Source: Tissierellia bacterium (lineage in GTDB: Bacteria; Bacillota; Clostridia; Tissierellales; Peptoniphilaceae). Taken from it: 64,000 bases of DNA. Made by a program: the position numbers and the translations under genes. The stretch is taken from assembly GCA_030540635.1 (NCBI GenBank), contig JAUNVW010000003.1, positions 43,284-107,283 of the forward strand, read 5' to 3'. Every line of letters starts with the position of its first letter. The stretch's first letter is position 1. Positions 55,312 to 64,000 of this stretch are shown one piece after another. The notes under the pieces are model-generated. The model was not told where the DNA came from. It worked only from the letters and a program-made list of their open reading frames with translations, and did no database searches.

Positions 55312-55354
55312 TTGACAATTGCCGTAAACCGTCTTATACTGATAATGGTTATCA
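55312..55354 (+). promoter_or_regulatory. Promoter and Fur-like box of small RNA copy 1
   Basis: TTGACA (55312-55317), a 17-nt spacer and TATACT (55335-55340). A 7-1-7 inverted repeat TGATAATGGTTATCA covers 55340-55354, overlapping the predicted start; it matches TGATAAT-N-ATTATCA in 13 of 14 defined positions. Confidence 0.8.
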
Positions 55355-55441
55355 ACTCTCCTTAATATATTACAAACCCCTTGTAATATTAGATTTAATT
55401 CATTACCTAAAAAGCCACGGCCCCCCTGCCGTGGCTTTTTT
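55347..55441 (+). ncRNA. Fur-linked small RNA family, copy 1
   Basis: Predicted 95-nt stand-alone RNA, start near 55347. It begins with the conserved ATCAACTCTCCTTA, whose ACTCTCCTT would pair with Shine-Dalgarno sequences. A hairpin follows, arms ATATTACAA and TTGTAATAT around a loop ACCCC (55368-55390). Then comes the conserved TTAATTCATTACC and a terminator (GCCACGGC at 55414-55421 paired with 55428-55435, C-rich loop, six T). No ORF with an RBS is inside, and no gene follows on this strand, so it is not a leader. It matches three more copies at 58024-58535; with copy 2 it forms a subtype (loop ACCCC). Confidence 0.85.
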
Positions 55442-55444
55442 CGG

Positions 55445-56581
55445 TTATTTTTTCGGTGGCCTTGGACCATAATACTGATAAAAAGTCGTTTCAATCGGTC
55501 CATTGAACAGCTTCCTCTTTCGATTGGCTTTTTTACCGATTAATGATTCCAGCTTTTTCTCGTCGGTAAGGATATACCAGGACCAAGTGTTCAATTGTTT
55601 CATCTTCTCCCCGAGATCCAATAAAATCTCCTCGGCTTTTTTCTTATCCATAAAACGATCGCCATAGGGAGGATTGGTAATTAAAACCCCATAATCATCG
55701 GATAAGGCAATTTGTCGAAAATCCCTCGTAATAAAATCAATATCTTCTCGAACCCCGGCAGATTCTGCATTTTCAATGGCCCTTCTAACGATACCACCAT
55801 CAATATCCGATGCTAAAATATGGAGCTTTCCCCCATAATCAATGGCATCCATGGCCTTTGCCCGTTCCTTCTTATAAATCTTCTGCCACTCTTTCGACCA
55901 ATGGACACAGTCGAAATCTCGATCGATACCTGGAGCAATATTCCGAGCAAATCTCGCCGCCTCAATGGCAATCGTCCCTGAACCACAGAATAAATCAACG
56001 AAAAACCGATCCCTTTGATAAAAAGACAATTCCACCAAAGCCGATGCCAAATTTTCCCGAAGGGGCGCCCTTCCCGATTCTATGCGATACCCCCTTTTGT
56101 GCAAACCTTCACCTGAGGTATCCACCATAAGTATTGTCCTATCTTTATGATTGCGAAAACGAATCTTGTATCGACTACCGGTTTTAGGGAACCAATCAAT
56201 GGGATAAATCTCTTTCATTTTCCCAATCATTGCCTTTTCAATAATACTCTGACAATCCCGAATGGAAAATAACTTGGCTTGATGGGCCTTGCCATTCACT
56301 ATGAAATTAGCGTCTTCAGCCATCCACTTTCCCCACTCAATCTCTTGAACTCCCTGGAACAAATCTTCAAAACTGTCGGCTTTAAATTCCTTTAAAACAA
56401 TATACACCCGATCGGCTGTGCGAAGATGGATATTCAATTTAATAATATCTTCTGCCGTACCCTCCAATTCAATATAACCATTGTTCACCGTAAAATCTTC
56501 ATAACCCATCTTTTCCAATTGCCATTTTGTCAAAGACTCTAAACCAAAGGCCATGACAATTCGTATTCTATATTTTTTCAT
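55445..56581 (-). CDS. THUMP-domain rRNA guanine/adenine methyltransferase (RlmL/YpsC type)
   Basis: A 378-aa RNA methyltransferase. Residues about 50-160 form a THUMP/ferredoxin-like RNA-binding domain (KMGYEDFTVNNGYIEL, LRTADRVYIVL, FSIRDCQSIIEKAM), followed by a Rossmann-fold domain with motif I FVDLFCGSGTIAIEAA near residue 195 and motif IV ITNPPYGDRF. The NPPY motif indicates amino-methylation of a base; targets in this family are 23S rRNA G2445-like sites. A minus-strand TATAAT lies at 56633-56638. It ends 4 nt from the terminator of small RNA copy 1. Confidence 0.88.
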   Translation of the reverse strand: MKKYRIRIVMAFGLESLTKWQLEKMGYEDFTVNNGYIELEGTAEDIIKLNIHLRTADRVYIVLKEFKADSFEDLFQGVQEIEWGKWMAEDANFIVNGKAHQAKLFSIRDCQSIIEKAMIGKMKEIYPIDWFPKTGSRYKIRFRNHKDRTILMVDTSGEGLHKRGYRIESGRAPLRENLASALVELSFYQRDRFFVDLFCGSGTIAIEAARFARNIAPGIDRDFDCVHWSKEWQKIYKKERAKAMDAIDYGGKLHILASDIDGGIVRRAIENAESAGVREDIDFITRDFRQIALSDDYGVLITNPPYGDRFMDKKKAEEILLDLGEKMKQLNTWSWYILTDEKKLESLIGKKANRKRKLFNGPIETTFYQYYGPRPPKK

Positions 56582-56684
56582 CCTAATCTCCCTCTTGGAA
56601 TTCTTGCTCTTCTTTGTGAATCTTCCTAAAGTATTATATCATATGTGGTACAATGTTTATATCAAAGAATGAAGGAGTCCATCG

Positions 56685-57332
56685 ATGAAATTTATATCTG
56701 AATTTGAAACCCTCGGGGAAATGGAAATTGGAGAAAAAGAAATACATTTAATCTCGGCTTCCCCGAGAAGACGAGAAATGATGAAATACCTCGGCCCTGC
56801 CCATTTTGGTACTGCAACCATTGATGAAGGCCGATTGACGAAAATATATAGGGAAGAACACAAAAATCTAGAAGATTTGCCGGCATATCTCTCCCTAAAA
56901 AAAGCATTGGCTGTACAAGCACCACCAAACTCCCTTATCGTGACGGCCGACACCGTCGTTATCCTCGGCGATACCCTTTTGGGAAAACCACATTCCCAAA
57001 AAGAAGAAGAGGATATGCTCCGTAGTCTATTTGGAAAAAAACACAAAGTCGTCACCGGATTTACCCTAAGGGACGGCCAGTCCTTTCGGGCATACACCGC
57101 CTATTCCATCGTAGAATTCGTCGAATATAAAGAATATTTAGAACCGGAAATAAAAAAATACCTCGCCCAAAGGGGGGGCAAAGGGAAAGCCGGCGCCTAT
57201 GGCATACAAGATATCCACCCTTATTTTATCCGTTGCATCTACGGTGATTACAACACCATCGTCGGATTACCCATAACTGCCGTTCGGGAAAAACTCCACG
57301 AAAATGGTTGGATCAATCCATGGCAAAAATAA
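56685..57332 (+). CDS. maf: Maf-family nucleotide pyrophosphatase
   Basis: Maf proteins hydrolyse non-canonical or canonical nucleoside triphosphates to monophosphates and can slow division. The motif ISASPRRREMM sits near residue 27, with TADTVVILGDTLLGKP and SFVEYKE-like features (VEFVEYKEYL), GGKGKAGAYGIQD and GDYNTIVGLPI. There is an extra N-terminal stretch of about 20 residues (MKFISEFETLGEMEIGEKE) before the usual start. AAGGAG lies upstream of the ATG. Length 215 aa. The next gene overlaps it by 13 bp. Confidence 0.92.
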   Translation: MKFISEFETLGEMEIGEKEIHLISASPRRREMMKYLGPAHFGTATIDEGRLTKIYREEHKNLEDLPAYLSLKKALAVQAPPNSLIVTADTVVILGDTLLGKPHSQKEEEDMLRSLFGKKHKVVTGFTLRDGQSFRAYTAYSIVEFVEYKEYLEPEIKKYLAQRGGKGKAGAYGIQDIHPYFIRCIYGDYNTIVGLPITAVREKLHENGWINPWQK

Positions 57333-57787
57333 AACTCATCCTATCGGCTTGTTTAATCGGCATCCCCTGTCGTTACAATGGCAAATCCCAGAAACAAAAA
57401 TTACATCTTCCAGAAGAAATTGAAATCTACCCCATATGTCCAGAAGTCATGGGTGGGCTTCCCATCCCTCGCCTTCCCTGTGAAATCCAGGGAGAACACG
57501 TCTTTAACACTGCTGGTAAGGATTGCACAAAAGCCTTTCAAAAAGGAGCAGAAAAGAGCCTAGAAATTGCTAAGAAAAGAAACTGTTCCCTCGCCCTATT
57601 GAAAGAATCCTCCCCCTCCTGTGGCGTAAACTTCATTTACGACGGAAGTTTTACGGGAAATAAAATTCCAGGACAAGGCATCACCACCCAATTACTTCGG
57701 GAAAATGGAGTAAAAGTCTTTTCGGAAAATGAATTCGCCCAATTAAAAAAAGTGATCCATCCCCGTTCATCCACCGATAAACTTTAA
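57320..57787 (+). CDS. DUF523 (TudS-like) Fe-S protein
   Basis: A 155-aa DUF523 protein. Conserved cysteines are in SACLIGIPCRYNG (about residues 9-16), CPEVMGGLPIPRLPCEI and LLKESSPSCG. A studied relative, TudS, is a [4Fe-4S]-dependent thiouracil desulfidase; this protein may use an Fe-S cluster similarly, but its substrate is unknown. ATG at 57320 is likely (the frame also has a TTG at 57308); the RBS is poor, so it is probably coupled to maf. It lies immediately before the small RNA array. Confidence 0.82.
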   Translation: MAKIKLILSACLIGIPCRYNGKSQKQKLHLPEEIEIYPICPEVMGGLPIPRLPCEIQGEHVFNTAGKDCTKAFQKGAEKSLEIAKKRNCSLALLKESSPSCGVNFIYDGSFTGNKIPGQGITTQLLRENGVKVFSENEFAQLKKVIHPRSSTDKL

Positions 57788-57973
57788 AAATTAAGCCATA
57801 AGCCTTAAATAATCCCTTCGTCTATATTATCCGCCGATTAAAAACCATAAATGAAAAATACTTTCAAATTATCCCTTAAATTTCTCCAAAATATCAGCCA
57901 AATTTCCCAAGTATTTTAGAAAAGATGTAAAATTCTTTCAACTTTTATTAAAATCTCACTTTATCCTTGCAAT

Positions 57974-58017
57974 TGATAACTATTCTCATTGACAAAACAT
58001 AAAAAGGGCTCTATACT
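57974..58017 (+). promoter_or_regulatory. Fur-like box and promoter of small RNA copy 2
   Basis: TGATAACTATTCTCA (57974-57988; 12 of 14 positions of the 7-1-7 repeat) abuts TTGACA (57989-57994); 17-nt spacer; TATACT (58012-58017). Confidence 0.8.
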
Positions 58018-58023
58018 TAAAAT

Positions 58024-58116
58024 GTATCAACTCTCCTTAATATATTACAAACCCCTTGTAATATGAAATTAAATTCATTACCTAAAAAAGATGTGGCATT
58101 TAGTCACATCTTTTTT
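58024..58116 (+). ncRNA. Fur-linked small RNA family, copy 2
   Basis: Predicted 93-nt RNA. It carries the same ATCAACTCTCCTTA motif and the ATATTACAA/TTGTAATAT hairpin with ACCCC loop as copy 1, then a diverged middle and the conserved TTCATTACC. Its terminator stem is unrelated in sequence (GATGTG with CACATC at 58090-58095 and 58105-58110) but still a stem with six T, so the terminator sequence drifted or was swapped while structure was kept. This is the first member of the tandem array of three. Confidence 0.85.
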
Positions 58117-58172
58117 ATATCCATTTAAAATATTAAAATCTTTGAAATAATATTAAATCCTTCGACTACCGC

Positions 58173-58222
58173 TGAGAACGATTATCTTTTTCATTGACAA
58201 AGGGAATTTATTCCCTTATACT
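58173..58222 (+). promoter_or_regulatory. Fur-like box and promoter of small RNA copy 3
   Basis: TGAGAACGATTATCT (58173-58187; 11 of 14 positions), TTGACA (58194-58199), 17-nt spacer, TATACT (58217-58222). Confidence 0.72.
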
Positions 58223-58228
58223 AATAAT

Positions 58229-58323
58229 AGATATCAACTCTCCTTATATTACAATCCCCTTGTAATATATAATTAGATTTAATTCATTACCGAAAAACCA
58301 TGGCTCCCCTGCCGTGGTTTTTT
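58229..58323 (+). ncRNA. Fur-linked small RNA family, copy 3
   Basis: Predicted 95-nt RNA with ATCAACTCTCCTTA, a hairpin TATATTACAA/TTGTAATATA with loop TCCCC, then TTAATTCATTACCG and a terminator whose stem has a T-G wobble where copies 1 and 4 have C-G. It forms a subtype with copy 4 (loop TCCCC, terminator loop TCCCCT). Confidence 0.85.
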
Positions 58324-58390
58324 AGTGTGAACAGTAATGGAATATTAAAATCTTTTAAATTCTATTAAATTCAAATAAAAAATTATTAAT

Positions 58391-58434
58391 TGATAATAAT
58401 TCTCATTGACAAGATTTCTTTTACTATTTATACT
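58391..58434 (+). promoter_or_regulatory. Fur-like box and promoter of small RNA copy 4
   Basis: TGATAATAATTCTCA (58391-58405; 13 of 14 positions of the 7-1-7 repeat) abuts TTGACA (58406-58411); 17-nt spacer; TATACT (58429-58434). The best-matching Fur-like box along with copy 1. Confidence 0.82.
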
Positions 58435-58440
58435 AGTATT

Positions 58441-58535
58441 AGATATCAACTCTCCTTATATTACAATCCCCTTGTAATATACAATTAGATTTAATTCATT
58501 ACCGAAAAACCACGGCTCCCCTGCCGTGGTTTTTT
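58441..58535 (+). ncRNA. Fur-linked small RNA family, copy 4
   Basis: Predicted 95-nt RNA, nearly identical to copy 3 (two substitutions in the body, one of which restores a full C-G pair in the terminator stem). Its terminator CCACGGC/GCCGTGG with six T ends 18 nt before the convergent ATP-grasp gene's stop and probably terminates that gene as well. Confidence 0.85.
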
Positions 58536-58553
58536 AGTTGGAAGAAGTTTCTC

Positions 58554-60713: not shown

Positions 60714-62957
60714 TTATTTTTCCTTATCCCCAACATAATTCTTGAAATATGTTTCCAATGCCTCTTCCAAAGAACTTGTTCCACCGGCTAAATAAATCTT
60801 CTTAATTTCTTTCTCTTTGATATACTGAATCGCTGGATCATTATCTTTCTCGGCAATGGGATTTTCCACTAATAAAATCGCTGCATTTTTAACCTTTGCT
60901 AAAGGTGCTGATGTCAATGCATCGGGAGATTTAAATCCATTGACGAAAATCGCTGCCTTAACATCGTTTAATTTCTTCGCAATTTCTAAAGATGTACCAT
61001 AACGATTAGAACCTGAGATTCGTTCTGCAATCGTCAATTCGTTTTTCACAACGACATCATCATCAATCGTACCCTTTCCACCGGCTATCGTCGCTTTCAC
61101 AACTTCTTGTTCTTTTACGAAGTCTTGTGCTACTTCCGGCATAAGATCTTTACGAGTCAATAAAATGGCTTGTTTTTCTTGTGTTGCAAGGGGAGCCACC
61201 GCCAAGGCATCGGCATCGATATAACCGTTGGCTACGATGATATGCTCTTTGCTGAAGCCATGATCTTTTACAAGGAGCTCTGCCACTTCAACGGCTGTTT
61301 CAAAACGATCTTTACCAGAAATTCGTTCGACTTTAACATCTTCTAATTGGTTCTTCACGACATTTGATACCGATCCAGTACCACCAACGATGATGACATT
61401 CTTCACTTCACGGGTCTTGATGAAGTTTTGAATCCCTGTGTATAGACTGTCTTTTCCCGTTAAAAGGATGGGAGCATCAAGTGCATTGGCCAGTGGTCCT
61501 GCTGCCAAGGCATCGGCTGCCACTTCACCATAGGCTAATATAAGATGATCTGTTTTTTCATAGGCTTCTTTCGCCGTGTCTAAAGCTGTTGCATAACGGT
61601 TTTTTCCGGAAACACGTTTCGTTTCACCATGCTCTAGTACTTCGAAAGGAAGTTCTGTTTTATGTTCTGTTCCCGCTTTTGCCACAAGGACAAAATGATC
61701 TCCGGCTGTAAATCGTACCTTATTATTTAGAGCAAAAGTTTTATCTGTTTTAACGGTAAATAGCTCCACCGATTCAATCGTATTATCCGGTTTTTGCTTA
61801 AATACAGTATAAGGGTCTTCTTCTTTTGTTCCATCTGATTTTACTTTGTAAAGCTCAAAGTAGACATTTTCTTTTTTTGCATCAAATATATTGGAATCAA
61901 ATTTACCAGTGATGAAAGATTGTCCTTCGTAGACTTTGTCTATGACGACAGGAAGTTTTTTATAACCAACTTCTACTGTTATCACATCGGAGTACACTTG
62001 ATTGGTCTTATCATAGACGTAAAAAGATAATTTGTCTCCAAGAGAAGGCTTTACTTTATCTTTAAATTCAATAACACCTAAACCGTTAACCGTTCCTAGT
62101 GCTTGTTTTACCTGATTTTCTTTGTCCGTATAGATGACATAGGGTTCATAAGTGGTGCCGGTCTCTACTTTTTCTAATTGTCCGTGGAACATCGTATCGC
62201 CAACGGCAATTTCATCCATAGTAAATGTAAGATCCGTTTTTTGAACGACAAAAGTAAGGCTTGTGTCCTCTTTAAGATCTACTGTATAGACACCATCTGC
62301 CTTTTTCAAAGTCGCAGCTTTAGCTGGATCAAGGCTTGGGACAACTTTTACATTTTTATAATTGTTTGGAATCTCAAAGGAGATCTTATATTCCCCTTCT
62401 TCTAAATCAGCTGAATAGTTATCACTTACAATGGCGTTATCAATTTTCATCTTAATGGCAGAATTTTTGATATTCTCAAAATTTACAATTAATTTATGTT
62501 TTTTTACTTTTTGTTCTGCTTTAAGGATCACCTTATTTGTATCCACTGTTGACGTTAAGGTTAACACCCCATCTGCAAAGGTAAAACCATCCGGCATATA
62601 ACCTTCCAGTTTAGAAAGATCATATTTCTTCGATTCGATTTTAAATTTCTTTTCAGTTCCTTTCGTCGTATCAATTCGAAGATAGCCTTTTTTTGAATTT
62701 TTGCTATCATTGCCAAAGGCAGGAGTCATCTCTTGGTTTTCTTCACTGGAAGTGATATCCGTAATTTTAATTTCGGCGGCTAATATTTGAGCCTGGGTTA
62801 AAAACTTATCATCCTTGTCTTTTAGCTCAATCGTCACCGATCTTGTTTCTATGTTCGAGGGACTTTTACCAGTGGAATTTCCATCGGCCAAGGAAAGGGT
62901 TCCTTGTCCCAATACCAAGGAAAGGGCCAAGAGCAATGCAAATATTCTTTTTTTCAT
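60714..62957 (-). CDS. Secreted surface protein with three cell-wall-binding repeat 2 domains
   Basis: A 747-aa exported protein. Signal peptide MKKRIFALLLALSLVLGQG (cleavage near 20-25). Residues about 40-440 are a lineage-specific, mainly beta region I do not recognise; it has several repeats of a KxxF/VxxK type and no enzyme motif. The C-terminus has three CWB2 repeats beginning RVSGKNRYATA (about 447), RISGKDRFETA (about 543) and RISGSNRYGTS (about 645), each with an IVGGTGSVS-like segment. In Clostridioides difficile CWB2 repeats attach proteins to the secondary wall polymer PSII; here attachment to a surface polymer is inferred. Confidence 0.93.
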   Translation of the reverse strand: MKKRIFALLLALSLVLGQGTLSLADGNSTGKSPSNIETRSVTIELKDKDDKFLTQAQILAAEIKITDITSSEENQEMTPAFGNDSKNSKKGYLRIDTTKGTEKKFKIESKKYDLSKLEGYMPDGFTFADGVLTLTSTVDTNKVILKAEQKVKKHKLIVNFENIKNSAIKMKIDNAIVSDNYSADLEEGEYKISFEIPNNYKNVKVVPSLDPAKAATLKKADGVYTVDLKEDTSLTFVVQKTDLTFTMDEIAVGDTMFHGQLEKVETGTTYEPYVIYTDKENQVKQALGTVNGLGVIEFKDKVKPSLGDKLSFYVYDKTNQVYSDVITVEVGYKKLPVVIDKVYEGQSFITGKFDSNIFDAKKENVYFELYKVKSDGTKEEDPYTVFKQKPDNTIESVELFTVKTDKTFALNNKVRFTAGDHFVLVAKAGTEHKTELPFEVLEHGETKRVSGKNRYATALDTAKEAYEKTDHLILAYGEVAADALAAGPLANALDAPILLTGKDSLYTGIQNFIKTREVKNVIIVGGTGSVSNVVKNQLEDVKVERISGKDRFETAVEVAELLVKDHGFSKEHIIVANGYIDADALAVAPLATQEKQAILLTRKDLMPEVAQDFVKEQEVVKATIAGGKGTIDDDVVVKNELTIAERISGSNRYGTSLEIAKKLNDVKAAIFVNGFKSPDALTSAPLAKVKNAAILLVENPIAEKDNDPAIQYIKEKEIKKIYLAGGTSSLEEALETYFKNYVGDKEK

Positions 62958-63011
62958 ATTTTATCCATCCTTTCTATATCTATTGTATCATAACAAAGGA
63001 AATATTCCATT

Positions 63012-63042
63012 AAAAAAGAGACTATCTTTCGATAGTCTCTTT
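63012..63042 (-). terminator. Intrinsic terminator after the second CWB2 gene
   Basis: A perfect 12-bp stem (63031-63042 with 63015-63026), four-base loop, then six T on the minus strand. Confidence 0.92.
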
Positions 63043-63061
63043 CGTATCTTCTTAAAAGTTA

Positions 63062-64000
63062 TTATCTTCCAAGAATGATGTTATTAATTTCTGTTCTTGC
63101 TTTTTCAGAAACTGTTCCAGTTCCACCTAAGATAGTGAAGCTAGTTACATCATATGTTTCTAGATAAGCTTTAACAGCATCGGATACTGTATCAGCATTT
63201 GGTAATAATAATACTGGAGATCCTTCTTTTGCTGCAAGTGTAGCACCTGTAAGAGCGTCAGCATAACCTGCACCGCTTGTTACAAATACATGGTTTGCAT
63301 TTGGATAGAATTCTTTTGCAATTTCTACCGAAGTTGCAGAACGGTCAAGACCAGCAATTCTATTTGCTGTTAAGTTAGAGTCTCTTAATTCTCTAATTAC
63401 TGCATCGGATACGGATCCAGTACCGCCGATTACACGTACTTCTTTTGCTTTGTTAGCAATGATGAAGTCTTTGACTTCTTTTGGAAGTTGATTCTTCATT
63501 GTTAAAAGAAGTGGTGAACCAGCTACTGCTGCAGGAGATGCGGCTGCTAAAGCATCTGGGAAGTTTTCGCCAGAAGCTAAATATACTATACCTTTATCTC
63601 CGAAATGTCCATGAACCCATTTCGTTTCATTATTGTCCATGATCCAACGTAATAAATCTTTCGCATTTTCTACAGAAGTTCCATAACGGTTTAATCCAGA
63701 GATTCTCTTGATTTTTCCGAAAGCTTCTAATTCTTTTTCAACCGCTTCGTTGATCGTTTGAGTACCACCAACGATTACGATTCTTGAAGGATTCACTTTC
63801 TTCAAATACTCTGCAGTATCTTTAGGAAGTTGTCCTTTTTGAGTTAATAATAATGGTGCATTGTAATTATAAGCAGTTGTAGTCGCTGTTAATGCATCAG
63901 GATAGCTATCTCCAGAAGCAATTACTACGTTCTTATAATTGTCTTTTACTTGAAGACCATTCGGGAATAATCTTTCTGCCATTTTCACAGCAGTTTCATA
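63062..64000 (-). CDS. CWB2 surface protein, C-terminal part (runs off the right edge)
   Basis: The frame is open to the window edge (the codons before GTG at 63988 continue YETA), so the start is outside. Visible are the end of one CWB2 repeat and two full ones: RISGLNRYGTS and RIAGLDRSATS, each followed by DALxxA and IGGTGSVS/ILGGTGTVS segments, ending ARTEINNIILGR. It is a wall-anchored protein like the one at 60714; the two are separate genes with a terminator between them. Confidence 0.93.
   Translation of the reverse strand, partial: YETAVKMAERLFPNGLQVKDNYKNVVIASGDSYPDALTATTTAYNYNAPLLLTQKGQLPKDTAEYLKKVNPSRIVIVGGTQTINEAVEKELEAFGKIKRISGLNRYGTSVENAKDLLRWIMDNNETKWVHGHFGDKGIVYLASGENFPDALAAASPAAVAGSPLLLTMKNQLPKEVKDFIIANKAKEVRVIGGTGSVSDAVIRELRDSNLTANRIAGLDRSATSVEIAKEFYPNANHVFVTSGAGYADALTGATLAAKEGSPVLLLPNADTVSDAVKAYLETYDVTSFTILGGTGTVSEKARTEINNIILGR

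Follow-up and report, generated by a model that had tools for sequence, protein, structure and literature searches.

The DNA considered here is a window of 64,000 nucleotides (nt) from the genome of a Tissierellia bacterium (assembly GCA_030540635.1, contig JAUNVW010000003.1, positions 43,284 to 107,283), in which four similar units lie on the plus strand at 55312-55442, 57974-58116, 58173-58325 and 58391-58537. Each unit combines a promoter, one or two boxes of the type bound by the regulator Fur and a short predicted RNA ending in an intrinsic terminator. We consider it likely that these are four copies of a Fur-boxed small-RNA gene, predicted to be repressed by iron, whose product would act as an iron-sparing RNA by blocking ribosome-binding sites, that of ferredoxin first.

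Exact matches to TTGACA-N17-TATACT occur four times in the window (at 55312, 57989, 58194 and 58406), all of them within the units. Allowing one mismatch yields five matches against 0.27 expected, and none of 100 shuffles reached five or more. The two hexamers lie at 55312-55317 and 55335-55340 in unit 1, 57989-57994 and 58012-58017 in unit 2, 58194-58199 and 58217-58222 in unit 3, and 58406-58411 and 58429-58434 in unit 4. Fur-type boxes of the 7-1-7 type match 11 to 13 of 14 positions in every unit. Unit 1 carries TGATAATGGTTATCA (55340-55354, 13/14), which overlaps the predicted transcription start, while TGATAACTATTCTCA of unit 2 (57974-57988, 12/14) and TGATAATAATTCTCA of unit 4 (58391-58405, 13/14) abut the -35 element, and unit 3 has both placements with an upstream TGAGAACGATTATCT (58173-58187) and a downstream TAATAATAGATATCA (58222-58236), each 11/14. 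Across the window the number of boxes alone is unremarkable (20 sites with up to three mismatches against 12.9 expected, a count reached by 2 of 100 shuffles), and the striking part is their placement on four identical promoters. A palindrome, AGGGAATTTATTCCCT, lies within the spacer between -35 and -10 of unit 3 (58200-58216) and is not present in the other units.

If transcription starts 4 to 7 bases past the -10 box, the predicted RNAs are 96-97 nt long (55346-55442, 58021-58116, 58229-58325 and 58441-58537) and share one layout. From 5' to 3', a stretch with CTCTCCTT (55356-55363, 58031-58038, 58238-58245 and 58450-58457) is followed by a hairpin whose loop reads ACCCC in units 1 and 2 (55367-55389 and 58041-58065) or UCCCC in units 3 and 4 (58245-58269 and 58457-58481), a linker and the intrinsic terminator. 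The terminator hairpin contains CCCCCC in unit 1 (55409-55440) and CUCCCCUG in units 3 (58292-58323) and 4 (58504-58535), and the terminator of unit 2 (58084-58116) is unrelated in sequence to the others and has no CCCC. Units 1 and 2 are 95% identical over a conserved body of about 64 nt, to which units 3 and 4 align with small indels; an unrelated terminator behind such a body is as expected if the terminator matters only structurally. Folding is more stable than in shuffled sequences (z -5.8 to -7.4 across the four units, 0 of 200 shuffles each as stable). Covariation among the four copies is weak, with the first hairpin invariant and most measures reachable by shuffles. The four RNAs have no open reading frame (ORF) above one codon in common and no same-direction gene lies downstream of any unit, unit 1 running into a convergent RlmL-type methyltransferase gene and units 2-4 stopping before a convergent ATP-grasp gene. 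Each unit is, as judged from these features, a stand-alone RNA gene with its own promoter and terminator and no conserved ORF. The original prediction is upheld on the four promoters, on box scores of 13, 12, 11 and 13, on terminators in all units and on the lack of a protein gene behind them; the conserved body, which it put at about 93-95 nt, is narrowed to the roughly 64 nt given above. The window genome, a 69%-complete assembly, yielded just these four copies at one locus.

The same kind of box is found before a wider set of genes in the window genome, where sites with up to two mismatches number 51 against 14 for the reversed pattern. These include feoA-feoA-feoB (two boxes), an IsdE-like ABC binding protein gene, a DUF3793-flavodoxin locus (three boxes), a ZnuA-type binding protein and a heavy-metal ATPase, while many other sites whose surroundings were read lie inside genes or beside genes of no assigned role. 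The box set is best described as a putative iron/Fur-like regulon including redox and metal genes. Since the same box precedes feoAAB, the IsdE-like gene and DUF3793-flavodoxin, Fur control of the RNA is the natural reading, and the box consensus TGATAATNATTATCA is that of the Firmicute Fur box. Promoters with such boxes would be repressed by iron-loaded Fur, so that the RNA is predicted to be made under iron starvation. A search of six other genomes (G005, G109, G018, G119, G117 and G031) found a clear Fur-type protein in every one, that of Finegoldia magna (G109) scoring 170 bits to the NCBIfam Bacillus Fur model (cut-off 220). Two near-perfect boxes were also seen at rubrerythrin (L219:817-1545) and one at Ni-SOD (L221:976-1515) of the window genome; these oxidative-stress genes seem to share their kind of box with the iron genes.

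Relatives of the RNA were sought by covariance, neighbourhood and pattern searches in 130 genomes (39 genera) of the family. A covariance model of the four window copies (R1) reached genus g6 at E 6.8e-4, where the RNA has TTGACA, TATAAT, an upstream box and a downstream TGATAATAGATATCA and follows the same gene pair as in the window. This pair consists of a Maf-like gene (56685-57332) and, downstream of it, a plus-strand gene of the 2-thiouracil desulfurase family PF04463 (57308-57787), formerly DUF523. Genome G109 of genus g6 is F. magna ATCC 29328, with a single-copy RNA. A scan of PF04463 neighbourhoods (30 loci) added members in genus g19, with three hairpins and either one copy (G018) or two (G119 and G120), and in G117 of genus g32. 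A second model built from g19 only (R2) found window unit 1 (E 7.3e-6), G117 (7.6e-4) and G031 (0.0021), the last being a true member. The pattern TTACN{1,3}CCCCTTGTAA occurred at 11 places in the 130 genomes, nine of them these RNAs and two elsewhere without a Fur-type promoter. Altogether the RNA was found in 8 of the 130 genomes and 4 of the 39 genera, a count from which more distant forms may be missing, and it adjoins a PF04463 gene in seven of the eight (in G031 the distance is about 61 kb). Between genera the stems and terminators diverge and the loops are retained: the loop of the first hairpin has CCCC in every member, and the terminator loop has CCCC in most, the exceptions being unit 2 and the second copy in G119. 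That second copy (L037:2560-2700) has a degenerate Fur-type box (AACCCTTATTAATAG) and TATGGT as -10, keeps CCCCC in two loops and may be decaying or have escaped from Fur. The covariance search of related genomes proposed with the original prediction, together with the neighbourhood and pattern searches, thus uncovered related RNAs in three further genera that share the promoter and the Fur-type boxes, and the prediction's idea of an iron-starvation-induced, multi-copy regulatory RNA is, at the level of sequence, well supported.

The target is suggested foremost by the ferredoxin leader. Ferredoxin matches were obtained in 128 of the 130 family genomes and the leader of the best short ferredoxin was read in 91. 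Its ribosome-binding site is AAGGGG, complementary to the CCCC loop of the RNA, in 7 of the 8 carrier genomes vs 0 of 83 in which no RNA was found; two of these 83 leaders have AGGGG and the remainder are mostly of the GGAGG type. Counted by genus, the AAGGGG leader occurs in three of four carrier genera and in none of 32 others. Fisher's exact test over the 91 genomes gives p 1e-9, a value that ignores kinship and is overstated because the genomes are related. G116, a 65%-complete genome of the carrier genus g32, yielded no RNA and its ferredoxin leader also lacks AAGGGG. Because the AAGGGG leader accompanies the RNA in most carriers and is absent from all checked non-carriers, the RNA would likely block the translation of iron-using proteins such as ferredoxin.

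Loop and leader also tend to change together between genera, as far as calculated pairing can tell. Duplex energies, which take no account of accessibility, were obtained for a segment comprising the loop plus 3' arm against the ferredoxin leaders. Pairing with their own leaders reached -17.2 kcal/mol in Finegoldia, -21.5 in G119, -23.0 in G120, and -20.2 and -22.1 in g32, values attained by none of 82 background leaders (one of which, from G012, was taken at a wrong offset, while the count of 91 leaders uses the corrected row). Across genera the g32 segment gave -11.9 with Finegoldia leaders and the Finegoldia segment -12.2 and -13.4 with those of g32, and pairing was strongest within the genus for g6, g32, G119 and G120. 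The leaders of G119 and G120 (L372 and L373) have TTAGATATTAAGATATCTAA just upstream of AAGGGGG; it resembles the outer stem of their own RNA and may extend the pairing or fold on itself.

As a wider look at possible targets, CAAGGGG, which is complementary to CCCCUUG of the first hairpin, was located ahead of an ATG at 72 places in the window genome (G000), F. magna and G018, of which 70 were checked by a start-codon script, with those in L234 and in the window excluded. Eighteen were judged real gene starts, eight in F. magna, seven in G018 and three in the window genome. Iron proteins account for four of the eight in F. magna (ferredoxin, rubrerythrin, an iron-type alcohol dehydrogenase and a 4Fe-4S protein) and for three of the seven in G018 (ferredoxin, rubrerythrin and a BadF-type ATPase, counted here as a member of an iron-sulfur family), shares that were judged without a genome-wide rate of iron genes. 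Complementarity to the ribosome-binding sites of iron-protein mRNAs looks clear in the three other genera and weaker in the window genome; likewise, the evidence for ferredoxin as the main putative target is good in related genera and weaker in the window species.

The window species seems to be an exception in how its RNA pairs. The 5' CTCTCCTT is found in the window RNAs, unlike the other members seen, and its conserved stretch is, by predicted pairing, a better partner for ferredoxin than the loop. The 5' segment of unit 1 pairs with the ferredoxin leader of its own genome at -15.4 (matched by 1 of 82 foreign leaders) and the form in unit 3 at -12.9 (matched by 5 of 82). Rubrerythrin, with AAGGAGAG at its ribosome-binding site, ranks second for both 5' forms among 201 gene starts of the window genome, a partial and non-random sample with many loci fetched for other patterns, and a xanthine-dehydrogenase-type gene with [2Fe-2S] domains and AAGGGGAGAG is within the first dozen. 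In this lineage, the conserved 5' stretch CUCUCCUU seems to have taken over the pairing with the mRNAs of ferredoxin and rubrerythrin. A looser target pattern, AGGGG-N-ATG, proved too unspecific in the window genome (395 matches against 313 for the control).

Several observations weigh against this interpretation. The carriers are related, so that 7 of 8 vs 0 of 83 do not amount to 91 independent cases, and UvrB, MscL, a glycosidase and others have CAAGGGG starts too. The G018 segment prefers the Finegoldia leader (-19.5) over its own (-15.9), and with whole RNAs in place of segments, energies of -21 to -24 that equal those of cognate pairs occur for some background leaders. The remaining points concern the window genome itself: its ferredoxin leader is AAAGGAGGTAATATC, without AAGGGG; none of its three CAAGGGG starts belongs to an iron gene; among the 201 starts, headed by what look like a permease and an epimerase-like gene, its ferredoxin comes only 8th with unit 1 and 25th with unit 3; and no clear Fur-type protein was found in this 69%-complete assembly, the sole Fur-family protein scoring 85 bits to the NCBIfam Bacillus Fur model and being tentatively read as Zur-like.

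Energy metabolism in anaerobes of this kind leans on ferredoxin, and an RNA that targets this protein's mRNA would therefore act at the core of how they live. A single-copy version of the RNA is present in the human-associated anaerobe F. magna. Iron-loaded Fur would keep the RNA promoters shut; when iron is lacking transcription would proceed, and the C-rich loops of the RNA would cover the ribosome-binding sites of iron-protein mRNAs and block their translation, a task that the 5' stretch would take over in the window lineage. The same Fur signal would open flavodoxin, which has the same boxes in front of it, so that at low iron the cell would replace ferredoxin with flavodoxin. Fur binding, induction at low iron and the pairing of loop with leader are what we infer from the sequences. 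In Clostridioides difficile at low iron, flavodoxin goes up and ferredoxin-dependent fermentations go down, according to PMC6311696. The physiology of such a swap fits this response. Whether the whole amounts to an electron-carrier switch of anaerobes, in which one Fur signal opens flavodoxin while the RNA shuts ferredoxin, the leader has co-evolved with the loop by genus, and the window lineage, with four copies, has re-aimed its RNA to a 5' anti-Shine-Dalgarno stretch, is in our view an evenly balanced question.

A Fur-regulated RNA with broad targets, whose C-rich stretches would reach many G-rich ribosome-binding sites with iron proteins as just some of them, would explain why about half of the CAAGGGG starts belong to non-iron genes (UvrB, MscL, ATPase subunit D, a peptidase and a glycosidase) and why CUCUCCUU looks like a general anti-Shine-Dalgarno sequence. 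We regard this as unlikely, given that the ferredoxin leader splits by presence of the RNA and that ferredoxin and rubrerythrin recur in two genera. Slightly less probable still is a box recognised by a different member of the Fur family, PerR or Zur, which would make the RNA responsive to peroxide or zinc and not to iron. Similar boxes before rubrerythrin, Ni-SOD, the ZnuA-type binding protein and the heavy-metal ATPase would suit this explanation, as would a sole Fur-family protein in the window genome that is not clearly of the Fur type; however, feoAAB, the IsdE-like transport gene and flavodoxin have the same box in front of them, its consensus is that of the Firmicute Fur box, and iron-protein targets suit iron.

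Tandem, near-identical copies, and a degenerate box in one of the two G119 copies, might also be expected of repeats or relics that have promoters but yield no functional RNA. This explanation is very improbable, as the loops are conserved from genus to genus despite differing stems and terminators, unit 2 retains a terminator of different sequence, the RNA and its target leader co-occur, and there are just four copies, all at one locus. The chance that the units are leaders or riboswitches of a downstream gene is next to nil: a structured RNA with a terminator would fit, but no same-direction gene follows any unit and no riboswitch family was matched. An iron-sparing RNA aimed at iron-protein mRNAs remains the reading that we prefer.

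Rfam 15 gave no match above the gathering cut-off in the window, in agreement with the earlier remark that its sequence was not recognised as a known family. Below threshold, the window and five relative loci gave three matches (E 0.047 to 0.44), none convincing, the best being rli61 (E 0.047, 27.5 of 50 bits) and psRNA14 (E 0.4). Rfam holds a model of FsrA. The RNA is, to judge by these scores, a new family of a known functional kind, lying outside Rfam and compared with IsrR by description only; its best reading is a Fur-repressed iron-sparing RNA that would work like FsrA and IsrR and shows no homology to an Rfam family at the gathering cut-off. C-rich anti-Shine-Dalgarno motifs are known from LhrC of Listeria. 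LhrC is likewise a multicopy small RNA, but PMC4132741 describes its induction by cell-envelope stress via LisRK. The closest likeness in design is to IsrR of Staphylococcus as portrayed in PMC9410917: it has two Fur boxes, two of its three C-rich regions lie in hairpin loops, it pairs at Shine-Dalgarno sites, and its targets are mRNAs for iron-containing enzymes. IsrR differs in that the gene used there has 174 nt, three stem-loops plus a terminator and apparently a single copy, whereas the window RNA has about 95 nt, four copies and other genes around it, and ferredoxin is mentioned nowhere in that paper (0 occurrences). FsrA of Bacillus subtilis is also Fur-repressed (PMC9410917; PMC12871923 also deals with it) and binds the Shine-Dalgarno sequence via a C-rich motif, but requires the FbpABC chaperones, according to PMC9410917. 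That paper further presents PrrF1/PrrF2 and RyhB as Fur-controlled, iron-sparing and duplicated in some species; these are Hfq-dependent and Gram-negative, while the window RNA has C-rich loops and comes from a Gram-positive anaerobe. Iron-sparing RNAs are known there from enterics, Pseudomonas, Bacillus, Staphylococcus and Mycobacterium, and full-text searches of open-licence literature turned up no paper whose title or abstract describes one for Finegoldia, its family or Clostridia.

Some candidate relatives were set aside. Seven further genomes with R1 matches (E 0.0076-0.042) are likely chance terminators, the four displayed alignments lacking the loop CCCC, and among 24 further R2 loci (249 genomes; only matches with a locus were inspected, two of them at contig edges and poorly readable) the readable ones had no good Fur box and none had a CCCC hairpin. 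No RNA was found in any of 80 loci kept from a scan of contigs with PF04463 proteins, and the pattern scan of viral contigs gave no match. A tree of 25 PF04463 proteins grouped g19 with g32 (support 90/89) and neither supported nor rejected the carriers as one clade. The promoter-plus-box pattern, applied to the 130 family genomes, revealed no further RNA copy among 20 regions fetched, many of which start methyltransferase-like or ABC-like ORFs. One methyltransferase-like ORF behind a Fur-type box is near-identical across several genera (L079, L080, L081, L083, L084 and L088), and its relative in the window genome (L238) is followed by an ABC-exporter-like ORF; it gives the impression of a module under iron control that has passed from one genus to another. 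Elsewhere in the window, two minus-strand ORFs at 60714-63988 contain repeats that resemble, by eye, cell-wall-binding repeats type 2.

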